Part shown: piece after piece, positions 7,719-33,515 of the stretch
How positions within the stretch are numbered: the first letter of the stretch is position 1
Layout: every line of letters begins with the position of its first letter
Source: an uncultured Erysipelotrichaceae bacterium
Lineage (GTDB): Bacteria; Bacillota_I; Bacilli_A; Erysipelotrichales; Erysipelotrichaceae
Assembly: GCA_949744505.1 (NCBI GenBank)
Contig: CATJXY010000046.1
Location: 1 to 36,673, forward strand
Direction: 5' to 3'
DNA: 36,673 nt
Translations under genes and position numbers: made by a program
The notes under the pieces: model-generated
Database searches by the model: none
What the model was told of the DNA's origin: nothing
Seen by the model: only the letters and a program-made list of their open reading frames with translations

Positions 7719-7744
7719 AGAGTTAAATTCATTATTGCTAATAG

Positions 7745-8347: not shown

Positions 8348-8355
8348 AAACTACC

Positions 8356-9150
8356 TTATAAGCATTGTCCAACAAACTGTACTATCGCTGTTGCTGCTGC
8401 TATAAATTCTGTTGTACCTGCAATCCCTTTTAGTGTATTTAAAGCCATTTTTATAATACCTTTCTTAGGTTTTTCATCAGTAATAGTTGATATAGTTTCA
8501 ATGCAATCATTTACAGTTTCTCTGTCTTCTTCATTTAAATCTGAAGTGGAATTTAATAATTCACTAATTAGTTTTTGCAATCGTTCCATATCGCAAGCTG
8601 TTTGATTAGCAGTGATTGCACTACCTTCTGAAGCGACATTAACTTGTGTATTTGTTAATGTGCTATTTTCAATATTAACATTAACTGTTGTTTTATCATC
8701 TAATCCCATCTGTATACTTATCCTCGTTAAATAGTTTTCTATATGTGTTATCAACACTCTGATAAATTCATTTCCAAAAGCATTGACCTTTTCTTGGAAT
8801 TTCTTAGAAGTTGAGTAGCCATAGAATACATAACTCCTACCATCAACATTATTATCTGCCATATATTTCACCACTGCATATATATTCGCAACTTCCTTTT
8901 CATCAGTTGAACCAAGCGAAAAAATGCTGCGACCGTAACTATGTGTTACTTCATCGACTTCTTGCATAACATCATATTCTGGTTCTCCACAAGATTTTAT
9001 ATATTCACTTATCAATTCGTGAGTATCAAGAAATCTGATAAACTTTGAAAGCTCTGTTGAATAGATTTCATACCCAGCTCTAAGAACTCTGTTTGATGCT
9101 GATAAAAATTCTTTAATCAATATTTTTAATTCAATTTTACTTACTTCCAT
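8356..9150 (-). CDS. Unrecognised defence-operon protein with Asn/Thr-rich linker and hydrophobic C-terminus
   Basis: I do not recognise the family. I place the start at 9150 because GGAG lies nine bases before that ATG, although the frame stays open to an ATG at 9186; this gives 264 residues and overlaps the zinc-ribbon gene by 14 bases. The N-terminal ~150 residues are helical and mixed. Then a stretch of alternating polar and aliphatic residues (TVNVNIENSTLTNTQVNVAS and on, about 155-185) looks like a short beta-solenoid or amyloid-like linker, as seen between modules of some Abi and toxin proteins. A helical C-terminus ends with a hydrophobic segment (GTTEFIAAATAIVQFVGQ) that could insert in or touch a membrane. 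A membrane-acting effector is possible but is only inference. Confidence 0.55.
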   Translation of the reverse strand: MEVSKIELKILIKEFLSASNRVLRAGYEIYSTELSKFIRFLDTHELISEYIKSCGEPEYDVMQEVDEVTHSYGRSIFSLGSTDEKEVANIYAVVKYMADNNVDGRSYVFYGYSTSKKFQEKVNAFGNEFIRVLITHIENYLTRISIQMGLDDKTTVNVNIENSTLTNTQVNVASEGSAITANQTACDMERLQKLISELLNSTSDLNEEDRETVNDCIETISTITDEKPKKGIIKMALNTLKGIAGTTEFIAAATAIVQFVGQCL

Positions 9151-9592
9151 CTTTTTGATCTCCACAATATGGGCAATAACAGCCACAATAATTTAAAAGG
9201 TGTCGTATCTTACCTTGTCGATTACAACATTCAAAATCAACAATTTCCATAGAATCAATCGTAGATTTAATTGGAATTTCTTCTTCTTTTTGGGGTTTAT
9301 TTGCTTTAACTTGAATTATAGAATTTCTAGTTTTTCTCTCCAGTTTTTTCATCTCATCATAAAAATCCCCAAGAACTTTATTTAGTGCTTTAGCTTTTGC
9401 TAATTCAACGACATCTTTCGTAATATAAGTATCACTAACAAGCCCACACAATGGGCAATAAATATCTACAACATCATCGCTTTCAATATCATCCGGTGGA
9501 AGCTTAAAATACTCTCCACATTTAGGACATTGCAATAAGACAAATCCGTCATCGTCTGTAGGGATTGAAATTTTAATTGTGAATTCGTCCAT
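9137..9592 (-). CDS. Small zinc-ribbon protein of the defence operon
   Basis: A 151-residue protein with two likely zinc sites. The N-terminal ribbon has C22-P-K-C25 and C46-P-L-C49. The C-terminal cluster has Cys122, Cys123, Cys136, Cys138, and a C140-P-Y-C143-G knuckle. Between them is a charged helical segment. Such ribbons often bind DNA, RNA or a protein partner; the target here is unknown. The start is well supported: AGGAGG lies five bases upstream and overlaps the end of the helicase gene, whose stop is only 9 bases away, so the two are probably co-translated. It overlaps the next gene by 14 bases. I know of no named family for it. Confidence 0.7.
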   Translation of the reverse strand: MDEFTIKISIPTDDDGFVLLQCPKCGEYFKLPPDDIESDDVVDIYCPLCGLVSDTYITKDVVELAKAKALNKVLGDFYDEMKKLERKTRNSIIQVKANKPQKEEEIPIKSTIDSMEIVDFECCNRQGKIRHLLNYCGCYCPYCGDQKDGSK

Positions 9593-9601
9593 AGAATCCT
9601 C

Positions 9602-12600
9602 CTACCTTACAACCAAGAAACAAATTAATTCAAAGTCATCTAACCCTTTTATCTCATTTGATAAAAAGCTAATCTGTCCTCCGCTTAAGAAACCATCAAT
9701 ATCGCTTTCTTCTTTAACTTCAATAATTGATGAAATTGTTTCACCAAGAAGTTTTGAAAACTCCAACATATTTCTTCCGTCACGAGTTTCTCTATTAAAA
9801 GCTCTATATAATTCTGGTATTGGTTCATTCTTTCCTTTGCAAAGAAAACGCATTTTATCAAGTATTTGTTTTGGAGATAAGTGGTCACAAACCACATCTC
9901 CATCATTACTGATATACACCATATAGAATGGATGAAGTCTGTTTTGATTATCAATGTTTACGCTATTTGATCTGTTCTTCAAAACATAAATAACACCTGC
10001 CGGCGTTTCTTCGCTTGCTGGAACAACGGAATGAAGTCCAAATGGAGTTTTATCAATATCATCATGGTGCTTGATATATTCCAGTAAATCAAGTCTGAAC
10101 TCATTCAATCCCAAATCCATTATTGAAATGCCTGTGGACATATCCTCAATATCAACCACTTCTTCCTGCAAACGCTTTAGTTGTGATTTACGATATTCAA
10201 GATCTGTCTTTTCTTCTTCGCTTAAAATATTATCATCACCGGTTGCAGTCATATCAACAATTTTCATTCTTGTTTCTACTTTGGCTTTTAGGTCAATGTA
10301 CTCATCAAGGGTTACATCCGGCCAGAAATTCACCAGCTGGATATAAGCATTTGTACTTCCAATACGGTCTATTCGACCAAATCTTTGAATGATTCTGACC
10401 GGATTCCAATGTATATCATAGTTAATCAGATAATCACAGTCCTGTAAGTTCTGACCTTCCGAAATACAGTCTGTTGCGATAAGCACGTCTATTTCTATCG
10501 GGTTATCTGCCATCAAAAGATTTTTATCTTTCGAGATAGGTGAAAAACAAGTAAGAACCGTATTCAAATCACGACTTTTAAGTGGAGCAGTAGTTTTACC
10601 GTCTACAGAACCTGTTATCATCGCTGTGTTCAAACCAAAATTATTCTTCACATACTTGCTGACATTATCATAGAGGTATCCTGCTGTATCCGCAAAAGCA
10701 GTAAAAATAATAATCTTCTTATTACCTTCATTGATTGGCTCTGTCATCTTCTTATCAATGACTCTAAATAATTCCTGAAGCTTGCTGTCATGCTCTGGTG
10801 TAATATCCCCAACCATCAAAGTCAAAAGCTCTAATACCTCTTGGTCTTTTGATAACTCTCTCTTCCAAGATTTATAATCCATGTCAGCAAGATCTATTTT
10901 TACTTTTTTACCAAAGGTAAATAAATCATCGCTGTTTTGGTCATCACTATCAAAATCATCAATATCAGAAATATCACTTAGTTCAAGCTTCAAACTTGAG
11001 TGTTTATCATATCTGTCGATCGTTCCAATGGTGTTTTCAATCAGCTCCTTAATTCTTTTTAATGTCAGATTAAATGAAAAGACTGAACTTTCCATACGCT
11101 TCATCAGATTGATAGCAGTTAAGCGTCGGATACCTTGTTCTCTATTTGCCTGCGTAAATCCAACATTCACTTTGTTATCTTCATACAGTTCTGCATACTT
11201 CTCCAACTTGCTTGGCAAAATGAAATGAGTTGGTGTATAAATTGACAAATTGAGCAACATTAACTGTTCAAATATTTCATTATAGTTGATTGCCTCTTTT
11301 AAATCTGTAAGTCTTGGTCTTAATGAAATTGGCTTTAATCTGGTCGGGAATGTTCCAATATCTGTTGTATCATAATATTTCTGAATATGTTTACGGGAAC
11401 GGGCAATCGTGACAGAATCCAAAACTTCAAAGAAATCAAAATCAAGCATTTTCAAAAGATTCTCCGTAGTTCTGTCGGCAGTTTCCCATTTGCTCCAAGT
11501 GTTAAATGCTCTTTGGGCGTTCTTAAAAATCTCATCAATCGAACGAGAGGTATTTAATTTATCGTCTATGTAATCCGTATTTCCTTCATATGCTAAAGCA
11601 AGCTGATTTTTTAAATCATTAAATCTGTTATTTACCGGAGTAGCCGATAACATCAAAACTTTCGTCTTAACGCCTTTACGAATTACTTTGTTCAATAATT
11701 TTAAATAACGATTTTCCTTCTCGTTTTCTTCTCCTGATAATTTTCCACCATTGCGGAAATTGTGCGATTCATCAATCACAACCAAATCATAATTTCCCCA
11801 ATTTAACCTTTCTAAATCAAGACCATTAGAAATACCTCTAGTACGATTTAAATCTGTATGATATAAAACATCATAGCGCAGTCTATCTTCGGCAATAGGA
11901 TTATTTACATAGTTATCTTTATAAGTATTCCAGTTATTTGTAAGTTTTTTAGGACAAAGTACCAAAACAGATTTATTTCTATTTTCATAATATTTTATAA
12001 CAGCAAGTGCAGTAAAAGTTTTACCAAGACCAACACTGTCTGCTAAAATACAACCATTATACTTTTCAAGTTTGTTGATAATTGCAAGTACTGCATCTTT
12101 CTGAAAATTGTAAAGTAGATTCCAAATCTTGCTCTCTTTAAATCCAGTTGCTTCATTCGGCAGAACATCTTCTGAAATGTCCTCCAAAAATTCATTAAAG
12201 ATATTGTAAAGCGTTACAAAATAGATAAAGTCTGGGGAGTTTTCGTTATATGCTGCAGTAATATTTTCAATAACTTCATCAGTCACTTCCTGCAATTTAT
12301 CATTATCATTCCAAAGACTTTCAAACAAATCAATATAAGCATTTGAAAAAGGTGCTTCCGATTTTTGAATCATTGTATATGCGTTATTTCCTCTTTCACT
12401 GCCTAAATCAACTGTAGTAAATCCGTTAATAGGCATATAGTTCTTATCATCAAGATTGATAAAACCCATCATGTTATCGCTTGTGATATTCGACTTGAAC
12501 GTTACTTTCTTTTTGATCCACTCCGCACATTCTTTCGCAATGGCCTTTTGAGTCAACTCATTTCTAAGCTTTACTTCATATTCTGTTCCATATAAACTAC

Positions 12601-12838
12601 GTTCTCTATTTAAACGAGGAATATAAAATTCTCGTTTTTCTTTTTTTAACTTTTCTTTTATAAAAGTTGGAGAAGTAAAAATAAAACGAAGTTCATCAAT
12701 ATCGCTCAATTCTTTCTTAAGTTCTTGAAATGCATAAATAGAAAAACAAGCTGCTGCAATTGAGAGTTTGCTGCCATTTTTTAATTCATTTGATAAATCT
12801 TCTTTTAAAATTTTATTTCTATTATCTATCAATTCCAT
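9602..12838 (-). CDS. SNF2/DEAD-like helicase with N-terminal PLD-like domain
   Basis: A large ATP-dependent DNA translocase of the defence operon. I choose the start at 12838 (1078 residues) because GGAGG lies eight bases before it; an ATG 18 bases earlier has no ribosome binding site. The first ~150 residues resemble the phospholipase D-like module found at the head of many defence helicases (SKLSIAAACFSIYAFQELKK), but I see no clear HxK catalytic motif, so it may be non-catalytic. Helicase motifs: Q-type NFQKDA (244-249), Walker A ADSVGLGKT (266-274), DESH (356-359), SATP (398-401), ATDCISEGQNL (788-798), QRFGRIDRIG (818-827). An acidic insertion (SDISDIDDFDSDDQNSDD, about 621-638) lies between the two halves. 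First structural gene after the regulator, in the same operon as mod and res. Confidence 0.85.
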   Translation of the reverse strand: MELIDNRNKILKEDLSNELKNGSKLSIAAACFSIYAFQELKKELSDIDELRFIFTSPTFIKEKLKKEKREFYIPRLNRERSLYGTEYEVKLRNELTQKAIAKECAEWIKKKVTFKSNITSDNMMGFINLDDKNYMPINGFTTVDLGSERGNNAYTMIQKSEAPFSNAYIDLFESLWNDNDKLQEVTDEVIENITAAYNENSPDFIYFVTLYNIFNEFLEDISEDVLPNEATGFKESKIWNLLYNFQKDAVLAIINKLEKYNGCILADSVGLGKTFTALAVIKYYENRNKSVLVLCPKKLTNNWNTYKDNYVNNPIAEDRLRYDVLYHTDLNRTRGISNGLDLERLNWGNYDLVVIDESHNFRNGGKLSGEENEKENRYLKLLNKVIRKGVKTKVLMLSATPVNNRFNDLKNQLALAYEGNTDYIDDKLNTSRSIDEIFKNAQRAFNTWSKWETADRTTENLLKMLDFDFFEVLDSVTIARSRKHIQKYYDTTDIGTFPTRLKPISLRPRLTDLKEAINYNEIFEQLMLLNLSIYTPTHFILPSKLEKYAELYEDNKVNVGFTQANREQGIRRLTAINLMKRMESSVFSFNLTLKRIKELIENTIGTIDRYDKHSSLKLELSDISDIDDFDSDDQNSDDLFTFGKKVKIDLADMDYKSWKRELSKDQEVLELLTLMVGDITPEHDSKLQELFRVIDKKMTEPINEGNKKIIIFTAFADTAGYLYDNVSKYVKNNFGLNTAMITGSVDGKTTAPLKSRDLNTVLTCFSPISKDKNLLMADNPIEIDVLIATDCISEGQNLQDCDYLINYDIHWNPVRIIQRFGRIDRIGSTNAYIQLVNFWPDVTLDEYIDLKAKVETRMKIVDMTATGDDNILSEEEKTDLEYRKSQLKRLQEEVVDIEDMSTGISIMDLGLNEFRLDLLEYIKHHDDIDKTPFGLHSVVPASEETPAGVIYVLKNRSNSVNIDNQNRLHPFYMVYISNDGDVVCDHLSPKQILDKMRFLCKGKNEPIPELYRAFNRETRDGRNMLEFSKLLGETISSIIEVKEESDIDGFLSGGQISFLSNEIKGLDDFELICFLVVR

Positions 12839-12861
12839 AATAAAATCCTCCGTCATAATTT

Positions 12862-18903: not shown

Positions 18904-21981
<3,078 letters not shown>

Positions 21982-22036
21982 CAGAACTCCATCTTTTTTC
22001 CTATCTGAGGTATGATTTTGAATGAAGTTTCATCCC

Positions 22037-23407
22037 TTATGCCACGGCATTCTCATCCGGCATATTTTTAATTTCATTAAATACATCTACACTTAAAATT
22101 AATACCAGTATAATCGTACACCAATCCGTTAACGGTTGTGTCATATAAATTCCAATTTCACCAATTAGCCTTGGCAAGATATACGCAAAAGGAATATAAA
22201 ACAACCCTTGTCTGGAAATTGAGACAAGAAATGACTTCTTGCTTTTTCCCAATGATTGAAAATTCTGTGCTAAAATTTCGTAAACACCTAAAATAGGCAT
22301 ACAACACGCATATCCCTTCATCATACTTTGCCCCACAGCAATTACCTCAAGCTCCTGAGTATAAATCTGCATTAAAGAATTTCCAAAGAAATAGAAAACA
22401 AAAGACATGACAAACCCATAGCCCATCGTAAAACAAATCGAAATCTTCAGTGCCGATAATAACCGTTTCTTATTCTTTGCACCATAATTATACGAAGCAA
22501 ACGGTTGATATCCTTGTGCCAATCCTAAGAAGACAAACATCGCAAAACTCATACTTTTTTTAGCTAACCCCACTGCCGCAACTGTTGCAGTAGAGAATAA
22601 TCCCGCCGACTTTGCCAACATTCCATATGAAATGCTAGGCAGTCCACTGCGAATAAAAACCACGATTCCCAAATTCAGTATTTCTTTAAAACTTTCGAAA
22701 TCAAAACCGAAATCCAAGAATTTCCAACGTACAAATTGACTCTTTGTACATATTCTGACCATCATCAACACTGCTGAAATAATTTGGGAAAAAACCGTTG
22801 CCAACGCAGCTCCTTTTACTTGAAGATTCAGTCCCCATTCAAACATAAAAATCGGATCCAAAATCATATTGGCAAAAATACCAATTAGAATCGCAATCAT
22901 CGGAAATTGAACATCTCCTTCCGAACGAAGAAGGAAACTCAAAATTTGTTTCAACACAGCAAAAAAAGAGCCTAATACCAAAATGAACATATACTGATAA
23001 GCATAATCAATCACTTCTTGTTCTGATGAAAAGAAATTTAAAATTCCATTCAAATTCATCAACGATAAAAGAATCAATGCCAGTGATGTAAAAATTGTCA
23101 TTGTCATTGCAGTCTTTACTGCTTTTGATGTTTTAGAATAATCTTTTGACCCCAAACACCGCCCAACATAACTGGAACTACCTGCACCAATACCATCTCC
23201 TACCGATTGAATAATCATCGTAATCGGTAAAGCAACCGTTGTTGCGGCAATCATCGCAGTATTATGCAATTGGCTTATAAAAAAAGTATCTACAATATTA
23301 TATATTGTTCCTACCAGACTTGTTAAAATTGAAGGTACAGCCAATTTTATCAAAGCCTTTTTGACAGGAGTTTCTCTAAGTGTCTTTAAACGTTCTTCAT
23401 TCTGCAT
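22037..23407 (-). CDS. MATE family multidrug/cation exporter
   Basis: A 456-residue integral membrane protein with about 12 hydrophobic spans in two equivalent halves. The start VKKALIKLAVPSILTSLVGT and the IYNIVDTFFISQLHNTAMIA segment are typical of MATE proteins, which use sodium or proton gradients to expel organic cations and drugs. The second half begins near residue 240 with a matching RSGLPSISYGMLAKSAGLF motif. The substrate cannot be read from the sequence. A GGGAG site precedes the ATG. It has its own promoter and no strong terminator before ligA. Confidence 0.9.
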   Translation of the reverse strand: MQNEERLKTLRETPVKKALIKLAVPSILTSLVGTIYNIVDTFFISQLHNTAMIAATTVALPITMIIQSVGDGIGAGSSSYVGRCLGSKDYSKTSKAVKTAMTMTIFTSLALILLSLMNLNGILNFFSSEQEVIDYAYQYMFILVLGSFFAVLKQILSFLLRSEGDVQFPMIAILIGIFANMILDPIFMFEWGLNLQVKGAALATVFSQIISAVLMMVRICTKSQFVRWKFLDFGFDFESFKEILNLGIVVFIRSGLPSISYGMLAKSAGLFSTATVAAVGLAKKSMSFAMFVFLGLAQGYQPFASYNYGAKNKKRLLSALKISICFTMGYGFVMSFVFYFFGNSLMQIYTQELEVIAVGQSMMKGYACCMPILGVYEILAQNFQSLGKSKKSFLVSISRQGLFYIPFAYILPRLIGEIGIYMTQPLTDWCTIILVLILSVDVFNEIKNMPDENAVA

Positions 23408-23433
23408 TTTTCTTCTCCCATTTTATCCCACTT

Positions 23434-23462
23434 ATTTTACATGATTTACTTACCAAAAACAA
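23434..23462 (-). promoter_or_regulatory. Probable promoter of the MATE gene
   Basis: On the minus strand TTGTTT (23457-23462), a 17-base spacer and TAAAAT (23434-23439) lie 27 bases before the start codon, just after the terminator of the upstream gene. Four to five of six positions match in each box. Confidence 0.5.
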
Positions 23463-23497
23463 ACTAAAGTTCTCCTATCATTTTCACAAACAATAAT

Positions 23498-23523
23498 AAA
23501 AAACGTTCTGCAATAACAGAACG
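23498..23523 (-). terminator. Terminator at the end of the PTS/rpoN/isomerase operon
   Basis: On the minus strand CGTTCTG pairs perfectly with CAGAACG over a 6-base loop, followed by TTTTTTATTATT. It lies about 25 bases after the stop of the isomerase gene. Confidence 0.9.
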
Positions 23524-23548
23524 CTTCATCCTCGTTATAGTATTGAGA

Positions 23549-24427
23549 TTAAAGATTATATACTTCCACCATTTTTCTAGCCAGACATTGTAAATATCTT
23601 AATTCCTCTTTTTTCACTTCAAGAAATGAATCCTCCATCGGAATCTTTGCCGTATGAACTTCCAAAGAAAAAACTCCGTCAAATCCAATTTCTTTTAATT
23701 TTATACAAAAATCATGCCAATCAATTGAACCACAATAAGGAGCAAAATGACTATCTAATGTCGAGTAATTATCATGAATATGAACAACCTTTACCTTTTC
23801 TTTGAGTACATCTAACATAACAGAAGGCTGATAACCATTAATATTGGCATGCCCTGTATCCACACATGCAACAAAATCATCTCCCAATTCATTTAGAAAT
23901 TCTAACATTTCATATGGAGAGCGAAACGTTGTTTCCATAGGTAAATGAGTTTCATCATCATAACGAAATAAGTTTTCTATGGCAATCTTTACTCCATATT
24001 GATGAGCGACTTTTCCCAACTCACGATAAAAGTTCATATTATATCTTCTTTGCTTCTCAATTTCGTCTGCGGTCTTGGCATTTTGATATTTTCGTGGGTG
24101 AACAACAACATATTGACATCCCAATATTTGAGCTACCTGAAAGCTTCTCTTCGTCATCTCAATCAAATATTCTTCATTCGGATCAATTCCGATTTTTTTA
24201 ATCAAAGGAGCATGAATTTGATAAATAACCAATCCCAATTCATCAATCTTCTTTTTGATTTTTTTTGCATGCTCGATCCACAAATCACTATTATACTCGC
24301 TGTCTTTTCCGCAATACAAATAATACCCATAATCAAATGCATCAAATCCACATTCTTTGGCAAGGTCAAAACATTCGAATTCACTTGCATAATGGCAGCA
24401 TGCACTGCTGTTTATTCCTATTTTCAT
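23549..24427 (-). CDS. Sugar phosphate isomerase/epimerase, xylose isomerase-like TIM barrel
   Basis: A 292-residue member of the AP endonuclease 2/xylose isomerase-like barrel family, metal-dependent enzymes that interconvert sugars, keto-sugars or inosose-type compounds. Likely metal ligands are seen in strands: IAIENLFR (Glu), ACVDTGHANI (Asp/His), VVHIHDN (His) and FSLEVHTA (Glu). I choose the ATG at 24427 because AAAGGAG lies eight bases upstream; six codons more are open in frame. It starts 15 bases after the end of rpoN. The place at the end of the PTS operon suggests it acts on the imported sugar or its phosphate. The substrate is not visible. A nuclease role cannot be excluded from sequence alone but is unlikely from the context. 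Confidence 0.85.
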   Translation of the reverse strand: MKIGINSSACCHYASEFECFDLAKECGFDAFDYGYYLYCGKDSEYNSDLWIEHAKKIKKKIDELGLVIYQIHAPLIKKIGIDPNEEYLIEMTKRSFQVAQILGCQYVVVHPRKYQNAKTADEIEKQRRYNMNFYRELGKVAHQYGVKIAIENLFRYDDETHLPMETTFRSPYEMLEFLNELGDDFVACVDTGHANINGYQPSVMLDVLKEKVKVVHIHDNYSTLDSHFAPYCGSIDWHDFCIKLKEIGFDGVFSLEVHTAKIPMEDSFLEVKKEELRYLQCLARKMVEVYNL

Positions 24428-24441
24428 TTTGTTTTCTCCTT

Positions 24442-25680
24442 TCATCCATCTTTCCTCATTTTCGCAATCGGTATTTTTAATTGTTCACGATACTTCGATA
24501 CGGTTCTTCTGGAAATCTCAATTCCTTTTTTCTTTAATAAATTCACAATCATTTGATCCGAATAAGGCATGGATTTATCTTCATGATGAATCAGACTTTC
24601 AATCTCTCTCATCATTTCATGTTGGCTTTTTCCATCATAAACATGAATAGAAAAAAAATCTTTTAATAAGATACACTCTCCGTTATAAAATAAATACTTA
24701 TCTTGAACACAGCGACAAATTGTAGAAGGATTCAATCCGATTCTCGATCCGACTTGTTGATATGTCAGGGGTCGCAAAACATCATTCTTTACAAAATAAT
24801 CTCTCTGCACCAAAACCAACTCTTTGACAACTTTCATCATCGTATCATATCGCTTATCAATTCCTTTAATGACTTTATATGCTTCTTGCGTTTTTTCTTG
24901 GACATACTTTTTTGTTTCTTCATCCAACATCGACTCCACCTGTTTAACTTTAAAAAACGGTCTTTGTGCCGTTAAATAAACCTTTATTTCATTTTCTTCA
25001 ACTTCGATAAATACTTCCGGAATTTTATATTCCACTTTCATTTCATAAAGACTTCCCGGCTTTGGATTCAATGACTGAATATGCTTTTTTGCACGAATAA
25101 CCTCTTTCAAAGAAACATTGCAATTCTTCGCAATTTCTTCTAACTTATTTTTTGCCAACAAATCCAGATGATTGTAAACAATTTGAATTGCCAAGGGATC
25201 ATATGGATGATCAACAAAACAAAGCTGAACAAGAAGACACTCTTTTAAATTTCTACAAGCAACTCCCGCAGGAGTAAATGTCTGAATGGTTTTTATGATT
25301 TCCGCAATTTCTGAGCAATCTAACCTTAAAATGTTCATCAGCTCTTCCTCTGAGTCCTGAAGATATCCGTTTGAATCTAAACTTTGTATAATATATTCCG
25401 CTGCACTTCTATTTTTTATTTCACTATATGAAAGCTGCTCAAGCAACACTTCTTTTAACGTCTTCTTTTTACTGGCAAATTGTAATATTTCTTCAAAATC
25501 ACTCTTTTTTATAGAATTCGCTCTCTCATAATCAATTTCAACCAACGGATTCGATTCAATCAATTGATCTGACAATTCTTTAAGCCTTTCAAACGGCATC
25601 TCTAAAAGTTTAAGATTTTGTACTTGCTTAAATGAAAGCTTATTCTTTACTTGTTGATGCTGAGTCATTTTGATTTTCAT
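24442..25680 (-). CDS. rpoN: RNA polymerase sigma-54 factor
   Basis: Sigma-54 directs RNA polymerase to -24/-12 promoters and needs an AAA+ activator to open them. Region I is Gln/Leu-rich (HQQVKNKLSFKQVQNLKLLE, 8-27). The C-terminal DNA-binding part has the HTH with GSRIGLNPSTICRCVQDKYL and the RpoN box SRRTVSKYRE (390-399), close to the ARRTVAKYRE consensus. At 412 residues it is slightly shorter than E. coli RpoN (477), normal for Firmicutes. AAAGGAG precedes the ATG. It lies 72 bases after the PTS EIID gene and before the isomerase, in the same direction, so it is probably part of the PTS operon and under sigma-54 control itself. Confidence 0.95.
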   Translation of the reverse strand: MKIKMTQHQQVKNKLSFKQVQNLKLLEMPFERLKELSDQLIESNPLVEIDYERANSIKKSDFEEILQFASKKKTLKEVLLEQLSYSEIKNRSAAEYIIQSLDSNGYLQDSEEELMNILRLDCSEIAEIIKTIQTFTPAGVACRNLKECLLVQLCFVDHPYDPLAIQIVYNHLDLLAKNKLEEIAKNCNVSLKEVIRAKKHIQSLNPKPGSLYEMKVEYKIPEVFIEVEENEIKVYLTAQRPFFKVKQVESMLDEETKKYVQEKTQEAYKVIKGIDKRYDTMMKVVKELVLVQRDYFVKNDVLRPLTYQQVGSRIGLNPSTICRCVQDKYLFYNGECILLKDFFSIHVYDGKSQHEMMREIESLIHHEDKSMPYSDQMIVNLLKKKGIEISRRTVSKYREQLKIPIAKMRKDG

Positions 25681-25704
25681 ATTCTACTCCTTTACATTAT
25701 TGAA

Positions 25705-25746
25705 AGGGTCATAATCTAAGGAGGACTAACACATGATTATAACCCT
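25705..25746 (-). promoter_or_regulatory. Intercistronic RNA hairpin between EIID and rpoN
   Basis: On the minus strand a 12-base-pair stem (arms 25735-25746 and 25705-25716) is fully paired if one G-U pair is allowed, with an 18-base loop. In plus-strand RNA the same position would be a C/A mismatch, which suggests that the minus-strand transcript is the functional one. There is no T-run after it, so it is not a typical terminator. The loop contains TCCTCCTTA, which could pair (CTCCTT with AAGGAG) with the rpoN ribosome binding site. A processing, stability or translation-control role is possible. Confidence 0.5.
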
Positions 25747-25752
25747 TTTATC

Positions 25753-26571
25753 TTATCCTAAAAATCCGATGTAAGAAAGTAAAATTCCTAAAGCCATTAA
25801 GCCATATAATAGTTTAGTTATACACTTACCATCTGTTTTCTTAATTGACCACCAACAGAATCCGACCAAGAGTACATTCAAGAGTTTAGGTGTAATTTTA
25901 TCTAACAAAGATTGTATTTGAATGACCCCTTCTCCACTCGCAAATTCAAAAATAACTTTTAAAGATACAGTACTTGTTATCATTTGACCGACAACAAACA
26001 AACCAACAATTGTCGCGAATGTTGTCATATAAGAAATTACTTTATTACCTTGCCCGGAAAGAATCATATCCATTCCCTTTTCATAGCCAAGCTTCAAAAA
26101 TAACCATTTACTTCCATGATTAATTAATCCAAATGACAAGAATAAGAAAATTGCTCCCAAGACGTTTCCTTCTAGTGCAATGGTAGCCCCTATACTTGCA
26201 AGAATCGGGTAAAATGTATTGAAATAAAGCGCATCCCCGACTCCGGCAAGAGGTCCCATCAATCCGGCCTTTACCGATGTTAGAAGTTCTTTATGATCTT
26301 CATCTGTTGTTTCCTCTAAGGCACTACATAAACCGACTACAAAGTGATTCATTGTATTATGATTATTATAGAATTGAAGATGTCTTTTCATGGCTCTTAC
26401 TTTTTCTTCTTTTGGACGATCTTGATATATTTTTTCAAGAGCCGGTGTCATCATGCTCAAAAATCCGATTGCTTGCATGCGCTCAAAGTTTTGAGTTGAT
26501 TGAAAACAATATCCGCGAAAATACATTTTCAACAAGTCTTTTTTTGTTAATAGTCTTTTCTGATTCTCCAT
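25753..26571 (-). CDS. PTS mannose/fructose/sorbose family transporter subunit IID
   Basis: A membrane subunit that, with IIC, forms the sugar channel of a mannose-family PTS. The family opening is LTKKDLLKMYFRGYCFQSTQ followed by ERMQAIGFLSMMTPALEKIY. A later GLMGPLAGVGDALYFNTFYP motif (about 107-126) is characteristic of IID, and hydrophobic segments fill the second half. At 272 residues it is full length. The start overlaps the IIC stop as TAATG. Which sugar is moved cannot be read from the sequence; this family takes mannose, fructose, sorbose, glucosamine, galactosamine and relatives. Confidence 0.93.
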   Translation of the reverse strand: MENQKRLLTKKDLLKMYFRGYCFQSTQNFERMQAIGFLSMMTPALEKIYQDRPKEEKVRAMKRHLQFYNNHNTMNHFVVGLCSALEETTDEDHKELLTSVKAGLMGPLAGVGDALYFNTFYPILASIGATIALEGNVLGAIFLFLSFGLINHGSKWLFLKLGYEKGMDMILSGQGNKVISYMTTFATIVGLFVVGQMITSTVSLKVIFEFASGEGVIQIQSLLDKITPKLLNVLLVGFCWWSIKKTDGKCITKLLYGLMALGILLSYIGFLG

Positions 26572-27326
26572 TATAGATCCAAACCTCCTTCTTCACTTTG
26601 GGCTTCCTTATTTTCCAAACAACAATGCATACCGGCAATTCCGATAGCAATAATTGAAACTGCAAATAAATTCAATCCCAAGTAGTTAGCAAACGCAAAT
26701 CCCAAAACCAAATATTGCCAATTACTCTTTTTCAACATGTAGTTCAGCAGCATTCCCAATCCGATTGCCGGAATCATTTTGCTTGCAACATTCAAACCGG
26801 TCAAAATCCAAGCCGGAATGACATCCAACAAAGACTGAATGGCTGCACTTCCCACATAAATCGTTACAAAACAAGGAATTGCATACATGAAGAAAGTTAA
26901 AAGAACCCCATATACTTGAAGCTGATCCAATTTTCTGAAATCACCCGCTTCGGCAAGTTTTTCTGCCCATCCGTTAAATACATTTCTGATTGTCTTTAAA
27001 AGAATAATTCCCTGTTGCATTAATGTAGCCACCGGAATAGCCGCAGTCACACCGACAGATACATCTCCTCCGGTCAAAGCCGCAATTGCTGTTCCGACAA
27101 TCGCTCCGGTTGTTACATCCGGTGGTGTATAAGCACCTACAGCATTGACTCCAAGCCACATCAATTCCAAAGTTCCACCAACGACAAGACCGGTACGAAG
27201 ATCTCCCAATAAAAGTCCTGTAACCGTTCCTGCTAAAAGTGGTTTACGAAATTGAAACTGAGGTCCAAAAGCATCTAATCCGCAAAAACCTGCCCAAATT
27301 CCAACTAATAAGCATTTTAAAATCAT
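26571..27326 (-). CDS. PTS mannose/fructose/sorbose family transporter subunit IIC
   Basis: A membrane subunit and sugar channel partner of IID. It is strongly hydrophobic, with about six spans. The region with GLLLGDLRTGLVVGGTLELM (about 37-56) and the following NAVGAYTPPDVTTGAIVGTA match the conserved IIC-sorbose pattern. At 251 residues it is a normal length. Its start overlaps the IIB stop by four bases (ATGA) and its stop overlaps the IID start by one (TAATG), so the transporter subunits are translationally linked. Confidence 0.93.
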   Translation of the reverse strand: MILKCLLVGIWAGFCGLDAFGPQFQFRKPLLAGTVTGLLLGDLRTGLVVGGTLELMWLGVNAVGAYTPPDVTTGAIVGTAIAALTGGDVSVGVTAAIPVATLMQQGIILLKTIRNVFNGWAEKLAEAGDFRKLDQLQVYGVLLTFFMYAIPCFVTIYVGSAAIQSLLDVIPAWILTGLNVASKMIPAIGLGMLLNYMLKKSNWQYLVLGFAFANYLGLNLFAVSIIAIGIAGMHCCLENKEAQSEEGGLDL

Positions 27327-27811
27327 TTTTCCATCTCCTTTTCGATTAAATCTTTAAAATAAATCAATTCATCTTTTGGAATCATTTGAATCTGAATATC
27401 TATCCCCCGTGATAATATCTCCTTTAGATTCTCAACATCTTGATCATTAAGTGCAATTGCTTTGGTAAATCTACGACTGTTTTCTTTCGCTCTTAATCCA
27501 CCCAGATTTAAGACTTGAAAGCTCAAACCGTTTTTGGCCAGCCTTAATGCATCATCCGTATTGATCAAAATAATCAATGTACGCTTTTTGATTTCTGTCT
27601 TCTTCAACAAGGATAACAATTCATCCACTCCGAATATTCTTATTTGAATATTGGAAGGTGCTGTCATCATAATCCCTGCCTTTTGAATCGGATCATTCAC
27701 AACAACATCATTCACGACAAGAATCTGCTCGATATTGAACTTGTTTACCCATGTTGTAATAACCTGTCCATGAATCATTCGATCATCAATTCTCACTAAC
27801 TCAACAGCCAT
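27323..27811 (-). CDS. PTS mannose/fructose/sorbose family subunit IIB
   Basis: A cytoplasmic subunit that passes phosphate from IIA to the incoming sugar. The phosphorylated residue is His14 in VRIDDRMIHGQVITTWV, the hallmark of this family. Length is 162 residues, as usual. Its start shares one base with the IIA stop. It belongs to the four-gene PTS operon driven from the sigma-54 promoter upstream of IIA. Confidence 0.95.
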   Translation of the reverse strand: MAVELVRIDDRMIHGQVITTWVNKFNIEQILVVNDVVVNDPIQKAGIMMTAPSNIQIRIFGVDELLSLLKKTEIKKRTLIILINTDDALRLAKNGLSFQVLNLGGLRAKENSRRFTKAIALNDQDVENLKEILSRGIDIQIQMIPKDELIYFKDLIEKEMEK

Positions 27812-28236
27812 TAATAACTCCCTCCTTTCATTTCTTCACTAAAAACTCTTAAAGATGAGGCAAAAGAATCTGTCAATTCTTTCGCAAGCTCTTTGAAGTT
27901 GCAATTTGGATCACTTCTTCTCGTTACCGCTTCAAGTAAAATCGGAATATTAAATCCTGCAAAAACCGTTACATTTTTTTGTGTCAGAAGAAGTCTTGCA
28001 GCAACGTTGCACGGAGTGCCACACATGATATCCGCAAAGACAAATACTTCATCTGTGGTTTTCATTAATTCTTTATATTCCGTCAACATTTGATTTTCAA
28101 TTAGTTCTACATCCTCAACGCTTGATACTGTAATGGTTGAAATATCATCCATTTTCCCGGCAATGGTTTCAATACAACTCAATGCACCTTTCGCAAAATC
28201 ACCATGGCTTGCTAATATGATTCCCAGTTTTCCCAT
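27811..28236 (-). CDS. PTS mannose/fructose family subunit IIA
   Basis: A cytoplasmic subunit that accepts phosphate from HPr on His11 (GIILASHGDFAKGAL). A conserved FADIMCGTPCNVAARLLLTQ stretch follows (about 68-87). At 141 residues it is a stand-alone IIA, as in manX-type systems that keep A and B apart. It is the first gene of the PTS operon; AGGAGAGTTC-type purine-rich sequence precedes the ATG, and the -24/-12 promoter is about 37 bases upstream. Confidence 0.95.
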   Translation of the reverse strand: MGKLGIILASHGDFAKGALSCIETIAGKMDDISTITVSSVEDVELIENQMLTEYKELMKTTDEVFVFADIMCGTPCNVAARLLLTQKNVTVFAGFNIPILLEAVTRRSDPNCNFKELAKELTDSFASSLRVFSEEMKGGSY

Positions 28237-28272
28237 TGAACTCTCCTTTATCCTCCTTTCACCTATATCTCA

Positions 28273-28286
28273 GCAATTTTCATGCC
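28273..28286 (-). promoter_or_regulatory. Sigma-54 (-24/-12) promoter of the PTS operon
   Basis: On the minus strand TGGCATG-AAAA-TTGCT has the invariant GG (28286-28285) and GC (28274-28273) exactly ten bases apart, matching the YTGGCACG-N4-TTGCW consensus at nearly every position. It lies 37 bases before the EIIA start codon. The neighbours are a LevR-type sigma-54 activator and rpoN. Two copies of the 9-base direct repeat TTTCATACA (28327-28335 and 28346-28354, plus-strand reading) lie upstream and may be activator sites. Confidence 0.9.
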
Positions 28287-28292
28287 ATACAC

Positions 28293-28329
28293 AAAAAAAG
28301 GAATATTTCCGCTAAAACATTCCTTTTTT
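28293..28329. terminator. Terminator after the activator gene, possibly bidirectional
   Basis: AAAAAAGGAAT (28294-28304) pairs with ATTCCTTTTTT (28319-28329). On both strands the stem ends in a T-run. It separates the end of the LevR-type gene from the PTS promoter and sits only seven bases upstream of the -24 box. Confidence 0.75.
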
Positions 28330-28354
28330 CATACACTTTTTCCCATTTCATACA

Positions 28355-31117
28355 TCATTCTTTAAAATTAGAATCTCTCTGTATGATTTTAACGATGTGT
28401 GATATTTCCTGATCATTGATCACAATATTAAACTTTGTTTCCAAATAATGAATTGTCCCATGAATGACCCGTTCTATTTCGTTTTCTATTTTACTTAATT
28501 CTTCATTATGAGCCGGTTGCATAAATTCATAATCTTTCATGACCAATCTTTCAATCAGGTAAGAAAGATGAACGATCAAATCAATCACAGTAGAATTATC
28601 AAACAGGAGTTGAAAGTTTTCTTCTAATTGTTGTATATATTTTTCAATATAAAAATACAACTTCTTTGCATCAAAATAATAAAGATACTTATCAATTGTT
28701 TCCAATGTGATATCAATCTGTGTCTCTCTTTTTAGCTCAGAAGCCATGTCTTGTTTAGAAACTGCATTGACTTCATTCACAAATGAAAATAAGAAATCAA
28801 TCCCATTCCCAAACAGAATATCATACAACGAAACAAACGGGATATTTTCTATCTCTAAATCAACTGTTCCGACAATTGCTAAAACATTTTCATTGTTTGA
28901 TTTATTATGAATCATCTCTTTTAAATGATTCACTCTATCATTTTGTAAAGCTTCCACTTCGATTGAATTGACTTTATTTTTTTCAAAAATGCTTTCCAAA
29001 TGTTTCTTTAGGAAAAAGGCTGTGCCTTCATTCGAACGACATACTGTATAAATCATCTTTTTATGCTGAACCTTCAGCACACGATCAATCTGATTATCAA
29101 TCATTCGATCCAATTTTCTCACATTTGCTTTAACCCCCTTTAATACATCGGTAATCTGGTAGTTTAATAAAATAAGTTTTCTTGCCGTTTCCAACACAAC
29201 AAGAAGATTGACTGTCGGTATTACGATTGCATGAATGCCTGTATTCTTTTCAAGCAATTCTTCCAATGAAATAAGACTCACAAGATCCACAAATAATATG
29301 ACTTGTTCAAGCTTTCTCGATTTGATTTCTTTTACCAATGATGGTAGTATCTCAAGCACATTTTCTTTAAGTGAAATATCATACCCAATGACAGAATCGA
29401 TGGATAAAAGTTCATTTACCGCCTCCGCAATACTTTGCGCTGTAGACTGACCATGTGCAATTACAAAAATCAATTCTTTCGTATTCCTCTCACTACCGTT
29501 TAAACAATATTCAAATATTTTAGATAACGGTCCAATTTCTTGATTTGGAATCTTAAATCCAATCTGATTTTCCGCAAATTGTATAAATTCCTTTGTTTTT
29601 TCTATCCTCTCATCCTGATTAAAATTCATTTCATCCAATTCGGATTGATAAGTATGATTCATAATATTTTTTAAATAAATTGCCAAAGCAATATTCTGGC
29701 TTCGATCAATCGGTGTATCCAAATAGCGAACTGCCCACTCGTTGACAAGCCACATCAAATCCAGAATTTCTCTATCTTCCAAATAAGCATCCAATTGATG
29801 ATTTTTCAATAAATGGCAGATTTCTTCTGTAAATTGAATGAAATTTTCCGTTATCGATAATTCCTCTTTTTTATTGTAAATAATCGGAAGATGAATCATG
29901 GCTCGATAAGATACGTCATAAGGAGCAATCAAATAAGATTCTTCATTCAGCAAAAGTTCACATTGTTTTCTTGTTTTTTCACTTGTTTGATCTATTTTAA
30001 AGAAAATGCTCTGCGGCAGATGATTAAGATGAATTCTCAATTCACCCAAATTTTCAGTCTGCATCTCCATATAGGCATTGGCAATCGTCAGTTTGATATC
30101 ATTCTTCAATTGACCGATATTTCCCTTTGGATAATAATTAAGAAGTTTAATGATGACTTCTCGATCAATGATTACTTGATATTCAATATTATTGACTTCT
30201 CTAGCATATAATTCAAAAATAAGTTGCTTTCTTTCTACAAATGTTTTCATTTGAAGGTTTGGGATTTGAATAATCATTTCGATTCTACGCAAAAAGGTTT
30301 CAAGAAGAACATTATCCGGATTCTCAGTTGTTGCTAAAACAAATGTAACATTCGCTTCTCTTTCAGTATTTGCTTCACCAAGACGACGATATTTCTTTTT
30401 ATCAAGAAAATAAAATAACATTTCCTGTCCTTCCGGTGGAAGACGATGCACTTCATCCAAAAAAAGCATGCCGTTATCTGCCTCTTCGATCAACCCGGAT
30501 CGGTCTTCTAAAGAATCGGTATAAGAACCTTTTTTACTACCGAATAAATAGCTCAATAATAAATTCGGATTATTCGCATAATCAGCACAATTAAAAACGA
30601 TCAACTTGCAATCCGGTTGAAAAACCCCTTTTTGGATTCCGTATTGAAACATTTTTTCCGCAAATAAACTTTTTCCTGTTCCGCTTTCTCCGATAATCAG
30701 CGTATGGAGTGGTTTTTTAGGGTAAAGAATCGCTGCTTTGGCAAGACTTACCGCTTTCTTTAAACTATATTCATATCCAATCAATTCTTCAAAAATATCA
30801 TCTACTTTGGATAAATTAACATTTTCTTCAATCAATTCTTTCAAAGATGAACAAATACAATTTTTCTCATAAACACGATTACTGATTTTCATCAAAAATT
30901 CTTTTGAAAAATATCGAACTGTTTTTCCTTTGATTTTAATTACTTTATCCATCTCAAACAACTTATTTACTTCAACCGTAACATTATTTCGAAGCATATG
31001 AAGCTCTTCTGCCAATTCATAAACAGAAATTCCTTCACATTTCCCCAGTTTTAAATCAATAAAAGAATATTTTCTTGAATAATTTTCTATTAAATCCAGT
31101 ATTTGATCAATTCTCAT
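28355..31117 (-). CDS. levR: LevR-type sigma-54 activator with PTS regulation domains
   Basis: An AAA+ activator of sigma-54 controlled by the PTS. Domains in order: N-terminal winged HTH (1-80); AAA+ (about 110-345) with Walker A GESGTGKS (143-150), Walker B LFLDEVHR (218-225) and arginines at 277-278; a PRD-like region (about 425-510); an EIIA-Man-like domain with phospho-His555 (VIAHGQS); an EIIB-Gat-like domain with Cys693 (YTVCRSNEGTA); and a second PRD (about 820-915) with His850 and His907. This is the LevR/ManR layout, 920 residues, full length. The sigma-54 contact loop, usually GAFTGA, reads GSYTDS at 197-202. It lies upstream of, and in the same direction as, the PTS operon and probably activates it when the transported sugar is present. 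Confidence 0.93.
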   Translation of the reverse strand: MRIDQILDLIENYSRKYSFIDLKLGKCEGISVYELAEELHMLRNNVTVEVNKLFEMDKVIKIKGKTVRYFSKEFLMKISNRVYEKNCICSSLKELIEENVNLSKVDDIFEELIGYEYSLKKAVSLAKAAILYPKKPLHTLIIGESGTGKSLFAEKMFQYGIQKGVFQPDCKLIVFNCADYANNPNLLLSYLFGSKKGSYTDSLEDRSGLIEEADNGMLFLDEVHRLPPEGQEMLFYFLDKKKYRRLGEANTEREANVTFVLATTENPDNVLLETFLRRIEMIIQIPNLQMKTFVERKQLIFELYAREVNNIEYQVIIDREVIIKLLNYYPKGNIGQLKNDIKLTIANAYMEMQTENLGELRIHLNHLPQSIFFKIDQTSEKTRKQCELLLNEESYLIAPYDVSYRAMIHLPIIYNKKEELSITENFIQFTEEICHLLKNHQLDAYLEDREILDLMWLVNEWAVRYLDTPIDRSQNIALAIYLKNIMNHTYQSELDEMNFNQDERIEKTKEFIQFAENQIGFKIPNQEIGPLSKIFEYCLNGSERNTKELIFVIAHGQSTAQSIAEAVNELLSIDSVIGYDISLKENVLEILPSLVKEIKSRKLEQVILFVDLVSLISLEELLEKNTGIHAIVIPTVNLLVVLETARKLILLNYQITDVLKGVKANVRKLDRMIDNQIDRVLKVQHKKMIYTVCRSNEGTAFFLKKHLESIFEKNKVNSIEVEALQNDRVNHLKEMIHNKSNNENVLAIVGTVDLEIENIPFVSLYDILFGNGIDFLFSFVNEVNAVSKQDMASELKRETQIDITLETIDKYLYYFDAKKLYFYIEKYIQQLEENFQLLFDNSTVIDLIVHLSYLIERLVMKDYEFMQPAHNEELSKIENEIERVIHGTIHYLETKFNIVINDQEISHIVKIIQRDSNFKE

Positions 31118-31151
31118 ATCATCACCTATTCTTTCACTTGATTTTAATGCA

Positions 31152-31180
31152 ATTGTAACATTATCTACTTTTATTGTCTA
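31152..31180 (-). promoter_or_regulatory. Sigma-70-type promoter of the activator gene
   Basis: On the minus strand TAGACA (31175-31180), a 17-base spacer and TACAAT (31152-31157) lie 34 bases before the levR start codon. Both boxes match the consensus at five of six positions. The activator is thus transcribed by the housekeeping sigma factor, not by sigma-54. Confidence 0.75.
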
Positions 31181-31184
31181 TTTT

Positions 31185-31217
31185 AAAAAAATGGAAGATA
31201 TATTTCTACCTTCCATT
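31185..31217 (-). terminator. Terminator after pcrA
   Basis: On the minus strand AATGGAAG pairs with CTTCCATT over a 12-base loop and is followed by seven T residues. It sits 19 bases beyond the pcrA stop and just before the levR promoter. Confidence 0.9.
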
Positions 31218-31235
31218 CACTTTTATGTAATTTTC

Positions 31236-33392
31236 TTAAGAAACAAGTTTCTTTAAAGAAGGATGTGTAGCCAAAACTTTCTTAACCCCAACCGGAAATT
31301 TGAACGCGATCTGTACAAAATTTCCTTCGACTCCAAGAACGATTCCTTCTCCGAAAACCGCATGACTGATTTTATCTCCCTTTTTAAAGCCTTTTTTTCC
31401 TTTAGGTGTTACGGGAGCAGAAACCTCTTCAAAATCAAACTCATCATCCGGTATAAACAAAGGTTGCTCATGTGGATCTTGAAATTTACTCGAAACACCC
31501 AAATGTTCAACTGTAGATGGATCCAGCTCATCAATAAAACGAGAAGTCGTCTTGACTCGATTTAATACATAGTTAAAACCGGAACTATCTGTCAAATACA
31601 ATTTATTTCTGGCTCGAGTGTAAGCAACATAAGCCAAACGTCTTTCTTCTTCCAATCCTTTTTTTCCATCTTGCATAGAACGATCGCTTGGGAAAATACC
31701 ATCACTCATACCACATACAAACACATTGTTAAATTCCAATCCCTTCGCCGCATGAACCGTCATTAGCTGAACACTTAAAGAACGTTCAGTTTCATTTGTT
31801 TCTCCATACAAGCTAACTATTTGTAAATACTCATCCAAAGTACTGTCCGGGAAATTAATCATAAACGATCCAATATCATTAATCAGTTCCTTTAAGTTTT
31901 CAATTCGTTCAGTTTCCTTGTTTTCTTCTAACATACGGCGATATCCACTCTCATCAATAACTTTTTCCAACATTTTATCAATGGACGTTTCATCCACTTC
32001 TTTTTTCCACTTTTCAATCATCTGGACAAAATTCTTCACCGTTTCTCTATTTTTCGGTCCCAAAATATCCGATTCATTTTTAAGTACTTCATACATGGTT
32101 GTTTTTAATTCTTTTGAACGATCTCGAAGCTTTTCCATGGATCTTGTCCCCAATCCTCTTTTCGGATTATTGATGATACGAAGTAATGCCAAATCATCAT
32201 TCATTGTAATCATACGCAAATAACATAGCGCATCTTTAATTTCCGCACGCTCATAGAACTTGACCCCGCCAAAGATCACATAAGGAATATGCTCTTCTAA
32301 AAGTCCTTTTTCAATTGCCCTTGAAAGATAGTTGGAACGATACAAAATCGCAATATCACGATATTCTGTCCCTTTACTATGAAGTTCAGCAATCTTCCGT
32401 GCGATCCATGCCGCTTCATATTCTTCTGAAGCGCTCGTATAATGAGTAATCTTTTCCCCGGCTTCTTTGTTTGTGTATAAATCTTTCTTAACACGATAAC
32501 TGTTATTTTTGATCAAGGAATTCGCCCCATCCAGTATCATTTGAGTAGAACGATAGTTTTCATTTAGGATAATCGTATGCAACGGGGCAAAATCTTTTTC
32601 AAAATTCATGATAATGTTCACATCAGCACCACGCCAAGTATATATTGTTTGATCGGGATCCCCGACAACATAGACGTTATTCTGTGTTCCGGCTAAAAGA
32701 CGAATCAATTCATATTGCACCTGATCGATATCTTGAAACTCATCGACATGAATATAATTGAAACATTTTTGCCACTTTGCCAAAACCTCGCTATATCGTT
32801 TAAACATTTTTACAGTGACCAAAAGTAAATCATCGAAATCCAATGCATATAAAGCATTCTGCCTCTCAACATAGTAACGATATAACTTCGCCTTATCCAT
32901 TTCTCCTTTAAATCCGACTGCCAATCGCTCAGCACGATCCGGATCGATCGAAGCCGCTTTATTATTCGCAATATAATCTAAAACAGACGCATAAGAATAA
33001 GTTTGCTTATCTAAATTCAATTCACGATAAGCTTCTTTTAAAATAGCCTTTTGATCATCGGCATCCATGACTGTAAAATTACGTGGATATCCCATAGTTA
33101 AGATATCTTTTCTTAAAATTCGAACACAAAGTGAGTGAATTGTGGAAATAGAAACCGTACTGCCTTCTTGAATCATCCCATTAACTCTTTCTTTCATTTC
33201 ATTCGCCGCTTTATTAGTAAATGTAATTGCTAATATTTTATTGGGATAGACTCCTTTTTCTAAAATCAGATAAGCAATTCGAGTTGTTAGAACACGCGTT
33301 TTCCCACTTCCTGCTCCCGCAATGATTCGCACATATTGAGAATCAGTCAAAACCGCTTCTTTCTGATTCGCATTCAAATTTTCAAAATTCAT
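31236..33392 (-). CDS. pcrA: ATP-dependent DNA helicase PcrA (UvrD/Rep family)
   Basis: A 3'-5' superfamily 1 helicase acting in repair and rolling-circle replication, and removing RecA from DNA. I place the start at 33392 (NFENLNANQKEAV, 718 residues) because a GAGGTGAG site precedes it; 34 more codons are open in frame but look non-coding. Motifs: Q-motif LNANQKEAV, Walker A AGAGSGKTR, motif II VDEFQDID, motif III GDPDQTIYTWRGA, motif IV-V region MTVHAAKGLEFNNVFV, motif VI EERRLAYVAYTRARNKL. The C-terminus (about 660-718) has the PcrA-type tail with a Tudor-like VFGEGIVLGVEGNFVQIAF. Confidence 0.97.
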   Translation of the reverse strand: MNFENLNANQKEAVLTDSQYVRIIAGAGSGKTRVLTTRIAYLILEKGVYPNKILAITFTNKAANEMKERVNGMIQEGSTVSISTIHSLCVRILRKDILTMGYPRNFTVMDADDQKAILKEAYRELNLDKQTYSYASVLDYIANNKAASIDPDRAERLAVGFKGEMDKAKLYRYYVERQNALYALDFDDLLLVTVKMFKRYSEVLAKWQKCFNYIHVDEFQDIDQVQYELIRLLAGTQNNVYVVGDPDQTIYTWRGADVNIIMNFEKDFAPLHTIILNENYRSTQMILDGANSLIKNNSYRVKKDLYTNKEAGEKITHYTSASEEYEAAWIARKIAELHSKGTEYRDIAILYRSNYLSRAIEKGLLEEHIPYVIFGGVKFYERAEIKDALCYLRMITMNDDLALLRIINNPKRGLGTRSMEKLRDRSKELKTTMYEVLKNESDILGPKNRETVKNFVQMIEKWKKEVDETSIDKMLEKVIDESGYRRMLEENKETERIENLKELINDIGSFMINFPDSTLDEYLQIVSLYGETNETERSLSVQLMTVHAAKGLEFNNVFVCGMSDGIFPSDRSMQDGKKGLEEERRLAYVAYTRARNKLYLTDSSGFNYVLNRVKTTSRFIDELDPSTVEHLGVSSKFQDPHEQPLFIPDDEFDFEEVSAPVTPKGKKGFKKGDKISHAVFGEGIVLGVEGNFVQIAFKFPVGVKKVLATHPSLKKLVS

Positions 33393-33486
33393 AACTCTCA
33401 CCTCAGTGTTTATAATCATATCATAATCAGAGCCATCACAAAACAAAAAAGTTAATGAAAACTTAATAGAATTATTTGTAAATTGT

Positions 33487-33515
33487 TTCACCACTGTTTC
33501 AAGTTATGTTATAAT
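33487..33515 (+). promoter_or_regulatory. Promoter of the plus-strand methyltransferase operon
   Basis: TTCACC (33487-33492), a 17-base spacer and TATAAT (33510-33515), with TG one base upstream of the -10 (extended -10). It lies 20 bases before the start codon at 33535. It is divergent from pcrA. Confidence 0.7.

Follow-up and report, generated by a model that had tools for sequence, protein, structure and literature searches.

The window analysed here is a stretch of 36,673 nucleotides from an uncultured Erysipelotrichaceae bacterium. Its minus strand carries, in this order, the gene of a LevR-type activator, a hairpin, a -24/-12 site, the four PTS genes EIIA-EIIB-EIIC-EIID, rpoN, an epimerase-like gene and a terminator. 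All open reading frames of this module are intact.

31152..31180, minus strand: candidate sigma-70-type promoter of levR (TAGACA-17-TACAAT, extended TG), a 10/12 consensus match only and the best of the region
28355..31117, minus strand: LevR/DagR-type sigma-54 activator, 920 aa (Pfam PF00158 127 bits, PRD 33 bits)
28294..28329, minus strand: terminator-like hairpin in the gap between levR and the PTS promoter (15-nt arms, T-rich tail, fold z -3.58)
28272..28287, minus strand: predicted -24/-12 promoter TGGCATGAAAATTGCT, 12/12 match, 35 nt 5′ of the EIIA start
27811..28236, minus strand: PTS EIIA, Man family (PF03610 76 bits)
27323..27811, minus strand: PTS EIIB, Man/Sor family (PF03830 152 bits)
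26571..27326, minus strand: PTS EIIC (PF03609 246 bits)
25753..26571, minus strand: PTS EIID (PF03613 278 bits)
25703..25748, minus strand: 14-bp hairpin in the EIID/rpoN gap, no T-run on the transcribed strand, weak (z -1.3)
24442..25680, minus strand: rpoN, sigma-54, 412 aa (Pfam CBD 154, DBD 139, AID 22.5 bits; TIGR02395 323 bits)
23549..24427, minus strand: xylose-isomerase-like TIM-barrel sugar epimerase/isomerase (PF01261 128 bits)
23500..23527, minus strand: intrinsic terminator at the operon end (12-pair stem and T-rich tail)

An initial annotation of the sequence had placed a LevR-type activator upstream and rpoN downstream of the PTS genes, and Pfam and the coordinates confirm both. 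The reading frame of the epimerase-like gene opens at 24445; its probable start is the ATG at 24427, and its ribosome binding site overlaps the 3′ end of rpoN. Relatives of this gene are present in the three closest cassettes. All its matches to NCBIfam are far below the cut-off, so that no substrate could be assigned. Elsewhere in the window (773-12856, minus strand) lies a defence-like block with a type III restriction endonuclease, an Abi_C-type protein, a DNA methylase and an SNF2-type helicase.

The window RpoN has a CBD and a DBD above the Pfam cut-offs and an intact RpoN box (ISRRTVSKYRE). Residues 5-49 match AID, the activator-interacting region I, at a score slightly under the cut-off of 23.8 bits, and the TIGR02395 model matches the whole length above its cut-off. 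Judged by these domains the protein is a predicted sigma-54 factor, region I included. In the activator, Walker A and Walker B are intact and the GAFTGA-type loop is replaced by GSYTDS, which none of the other activators read has. Each of these substitutions, taken singly, occurs in a validated working activator (PMC3162934). Despite the divergent loop the AAA+ domain is predicted to be of the sigma-54 interaction type. Pfam finds the C-terminal PRD, and the EIIA-/EIIB-like middle part was read solely from motifs. The best NCBIfam relative is DagR, at 437.8 bits against a cut-off of 1400; we rejected the identity with DagR and call the protein LevR/DagR-like instead. A search 5′ of the -24/-12 promoter for an inverted repeat as LevR binding site yielded, apart from weak AT-rich pairs, just the terminator hairpin.

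The singular loop of the activator, together with the AID score just short of the Pfam cut-off and the divergence of RpoN, could be taken as signs of a decaying module whose operon is no longer activated by sigma-54. We regard such a decay as highly improbable, as it would have spared the open reading frames, both Walker motifs, the RpoN box and a 12/12 promoter, and as every one of the loop substitutions is found in a working activator.

The near-consensus -24/-12 promoter that had been noticed before EIIA is indeed present. The site, TGGCATG-AAAA-TTGCT at 28287-28272, matches at all 12 positions. The motif as such is without enrichment in the window (14 found at up to two mismatches versus 12.8 expected from shuffles), and the promoter is credible because of its position and its conservation across cassettes. 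Among related cassettes, a 12/12 match precedes 30 of the 74 EII operons at a distance of up to 250 nt, and for a further 14 the match comes to 10 or 11 positions. With the reversed pattern, a 12/12 match was found in none of the 74 and never more than nine positions matched; out of 370 random 260-bp stretches taken from the same loci, 4 reached 12/12, and genuine sites may be among them. With its predicted promoter ahead of the EII genes the cassette has the build of a sigma-54-dependent PTS operon. A scan of the whole genome for further sites with a relaxed pattern, as had been proposed, returned two perfect matches, that of the window included. The second one (C70) lies inside a coding open reading frame, near its 3′ end, and was discounted. 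When one mismatch was allowed the genome held 56 matches versus 26 for the reversed pattern.

The question whether rpoN belongs to this operon centers on the 72-nt gap that separates EIID from rpoN. It contains an isolated TATAAT without usable -35 and the 14-bp hairpin, whose transcribed strand lacks a T-run. Neither a terminator nor a sigma-70-type site was called within these 72 nt, and the earlier statement that rpoN follows EIID with no terminator stands. Therefore rpoN is probably part of the operon that it helps to transcribe. The hairpin is possibly a processing or attenuation element and might reduce read-through.

The same gap also offers another reading, in which rpoN is expressed separately, by a weak internal promoter or by processing at the hairpin; the factor would then be private to the operon but would not reinforce itself. 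Besides the hairpin and the TATAAT, this reading has in its favour that many relatives have an rpoN without detectable -24/-12 site. The lack of a usable -35 and of a T-run speaks against it. Moreover, nine divergent cassettes of relatives have rpoN directly behind a perfect 12/12 -24/-12 site, so that sigma-54-driven rpoN genes do exist in this class. We consider separate expression unlikely, though it deserves to be kept in mind, and prefer the self-reinforcing operon.

The source genome (1.85 Mb, 97.9% complete) has a single rpoN. Many other sigma-54 activators, which the initial annotation had named as evidence against its proposal, did not turn up: PF00158 gave a single strong hit (131 bits). 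The two that follow score 38 and 27 bits, as ordinary AAA+ proteins do; being far below true activators, they were not counted. Since there is no second activator in the genome, the sigma-54 factor would be restricted by default to its own LevR.

Identity between the window RpoN and its nearest relatives is no more than about 36%, and the evidence from the order therefore bears on the class to which it belongs more than on the window copy itself. We surveyed 316 genomes of the order, and 394 genomes as a sample of the wider class. Within the wider-class sample rpoN is confined to this order, where 67 copies are spread over 50 of the 316 genomes. An activator lies within 9 kb of 62 of the 67 copies, at a median distance of 1.19 kb. 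In four of the five exceptions the assembly is fragmented and rpoN is on a separate contig; the fifth is in a genome (G012) in which no activator was found. This last copy (L096, G012:C16) is short and divergent and is possibly a remnant. Thirteen genomes of the order hold two to five rpoN genes, and such genomes pair each copy with an activator (3 of 3 in G078; five rpoN and six activators in G162). Nearly every sigma-54 gene of the order is packaged with its own activator, usually together with a Man-type PTS. For comparison we fetched by similarity 78 RpoN loci from outside the order, mostly from Firmicutes; seven have any activator-like open reading frame nearby and a single one, from a Lachnospiraceae metagenome-assembled genome, has LevR and PTS genes, arranged as they are in the window.

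The arrangement within the cassettes varies. Among 60 cassettes laid out, rpoN and the activator gene are divergent in 40 and convergent in 4; levR is upstream of rpoN, as in the window, in 8, and the reverse order is found in another 8. In the three closest LevR-EII cassettes rpoN is divergent, unlike the in-operon rpoN of the window. A culturable relative, Faecalicoccus acidiformans (L111), has a LevR-EII type that is among the closest. Several members of the cassette class are from Erysipelotrichaceae. At three loci of the genus g32 (L198, L199, L200), rpoN is convergent with the gene of a sigma-54 activator of another type, which scores higher and is about 630 aa long; -24/-12 sites are nearby and there is no PTS. 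Here the same packaging serves another regulon. Finally, four LevR-PTS cassettes lack a local rpoN although their -24/-12 sites are perfect (two in G043, one in G038 and one on C5 of G162; L236-L239). These orphan cassettes sit in genomes with rpoN elsewhere, and therefore it appears that sigma-54 can be shared in trans.

Sigma-54 and its activator also diverge together. RpoN and LevR distances correlate with a Mantel r of 0.70 (n = 48; 0.72 as partial correlation on RecA), versus 0.17 for RpoN and RecA; the RpoN-LevR correlation partly reflects shared ancestry of the cassettes and is alone no proof of functional pairing. Most of the RpoN paralogues within one genome group with counterparts in other genera and are hence no recent duplicates. 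In one pair of cassettes (G125b and G146) identity is about 96% for LevR and RpoN and just about 45-60% for the EII proteins, and therefore the LevR-RpoN pair can change its cargo. The locus L192 compares in a similar manner with L193, L194 and L196 (LevR and RpoN 74-96% identical, EII about 45-60%), the PTS cargo being apparently swapped. Within a cassette, rpoN is usually the gene with the lowest conservation (in G104b/G279b, 78% identity for RpoN and 99% for LevR), which would be expected of a factor with few promoters to serve. Two locus pairs of the genus g36 have RpoN identities of 78% (L095/L202) and 73% (L072/L076), against 99% and 95% for LevR and the EII proteins.

The promoters appear to take part in this divergence. 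In the well supported clade G057/G162c/G298a the promoters of the EII genes and of rpoN end in ATGCG in six of six cases, an ending which is missing from the other sigma-54 cassettes of the G162 genome. An altered RpoN box (SRRRIAAYRKR in G078b, SRRRIADVRKR in G279b) pairs with a TGGCGC -24 element, as seen at two promoters only. Over the whole set, the distance between promoter cores tracks RpoN weakly (r 0.19-0.21, p<0.01) and does not track RecA. The predicted promoter thus co-varies with the sigma-54 paralogue in the manner of Cereibacter, in the relatives and not for the window itself. In genome-wide scans, matches to the relaxed motif fall inside cassettes in 3 of 3 cases in G298, in 2 of 3 in G057 and in about half of 14 in G162.

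These observations bear on the simplest objection to a dedicated factor, namely that rpoN encodes a general sigma-54 which merely adjoins the PTS cassette, serves other promoters and has no special link to the operon. The orphan cassettes, whose promoters are used without a local rpoN, fit this reading, as does the excess of near-perfect sites in the source genome over the reversed pattern. The source genome, however, has no second activator for such a general factor, the adjacency throughout the order exceeds chance by far, RpoN follows LevR and hardly RecA, and all three relaxed-motif matches of G298 and two of the three of G057 fall in cassettes. We judge a general sigma-54 improbable. The earlier proposal that sigma-54 serves mainly or only its own operon is thus likely to be right in this genome; as a general rule it does not hold, as the orphan cassettes of relatives borrow their sigma-54.

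The cassette had also been described as portable, and several findings agree with this. The distances between cassettes barely track RecA. The genes pcrA and ligA, which are spaced by 37 bp in a Listeria record and by 34 bp in a Staphylococcus record, are split in the window (19952-33494) by the cassette together with a MATE gene (22037-23407). Further, complete cassettes of rpoN, LevR-type activator and EIIABCD are present on the Lacticaseibacillus paracasei plasmids p1CACC566 and pLPCN-2; PLSDB typing classes one of the two as mobilizable and the other as conjugative. As in the window, rpoN of pLPCN-2 is downstream of the EII genes and there is a 12/12 -24/-12 site. The plasmid cassettes differ in their cargo enzymes and in their distant RpoN (28% identity). 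The two plasmid cassettes are known to us as annotation only, and we found no study of them.

Taken together, the interpretation given by the initial annotation is supported and largely holds. The gene content, the single rpoN and activator, the predicted promoter, the packaging and the co-divergence with LevR make it likely, in our view, that the module is a self-contained sigma-54 regulon through which one sugar, or a derivative of a sugar, is taken up. We suggest that it works in the following steps. LevR would be made from its sigma-70-type promoter, and its PRD and EII-like domains would sense the phosphorylation state of the PTS, as judged from the LevR family. Then LevR, acting at the single -24/-12 promoter, would remodel the sigma-54 polymerase and thereby switch on EIIABCD, rpoN and the epimerase-like gene. 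Because rpoN sits inside the operon that it drives, induction would raise the level of sigma-54 and so reinforce itself. A basal supply of sigma-54 would have to come from read-through or from a weak internal promoter. We infer in this way co-transcription, feedback and a near-exclusive service to the own operon. The module would be one of an order-wide class in which nearly every sigma-54 gene travels with its activator and co-diverges with it and, in part, with the promoter.

In teaching, sigma-54 is presented as one global factor common to many activators. The B. subtilis lev, L. plantarum pts9/ManR and E. faecalis mpt/MptR systems have the same LevR-type activator, -24/-12 promoter and Man-family EII operon as the window. 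To our knowledge, rpoN lies elsewhere on the chromosome in all three. In contrast, the window rpoN lies inside the predicted operon, and the relatives repeat rpoN in each cassette. In Firmicutes it is established that sigma-54 and LevR control Man-type PTS; L. plantarum, like the source genome, has just one activator (PMC3162934). Specialized sigma-54 factors are likewise known. In Cereibacter (Rhodobacter) sphaeroides, with RpoN1-RpoN4, each paralogue studied works with its own activator (PMC11999139), and the specificity is partly set by the -11 base of the promoter (PMC11999139, PMC3538637). This is, however, one alphaproteobacterium which has been called exceptional, and the regulons concern nif and flagella, not PTS, and do not extend over an order. 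The mobile element ICEMlSym of Mesorhizobium loti carries rpoN2 and NifA, and rpoN2 is in an operon activated by that pair (PMC3538637). It differs from the present module as it serves nitrogen fixation with another class of activator, stands beside a chromosomal rpoN1 and is a single case. A search of the literature for Erysipelotrich* together with sigma-54 or rpoN returned no report, most subscription papers being outside the search, and we found no description of an order-wide rpoN-LevR-PTS packaging in Firmicutes with up to five cassettes per genome. The window module would thus operate in the manner of these known systems, with sigma-54/LevR control of PTS and specialized and mobile sigma-54 factors already described; what we did not find described is the systematic packaging through the order.

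More tentatively, and with some doubt, we put forward that in this order sigma-54 may have ceased to act globally and become an operon-level part, with up to five mutually insulated sets of sigma-54, LevR and promoter in one genome, each private to its PTS, horizontally spread and self-amplifying. The clade with its private -12 element and the genome with five rpoN genes make this orthogonality directly testable, and sets of this kind are ready-made parts for synthetic regulation. An order that packages sigma-54 operon by operon is a natural series for the co-evolution and insulation of sigma-54, activator and promoter, and it bears on how a regulon that needs an unusual sigma factor can be transferred as a whole into a genome without that factor.
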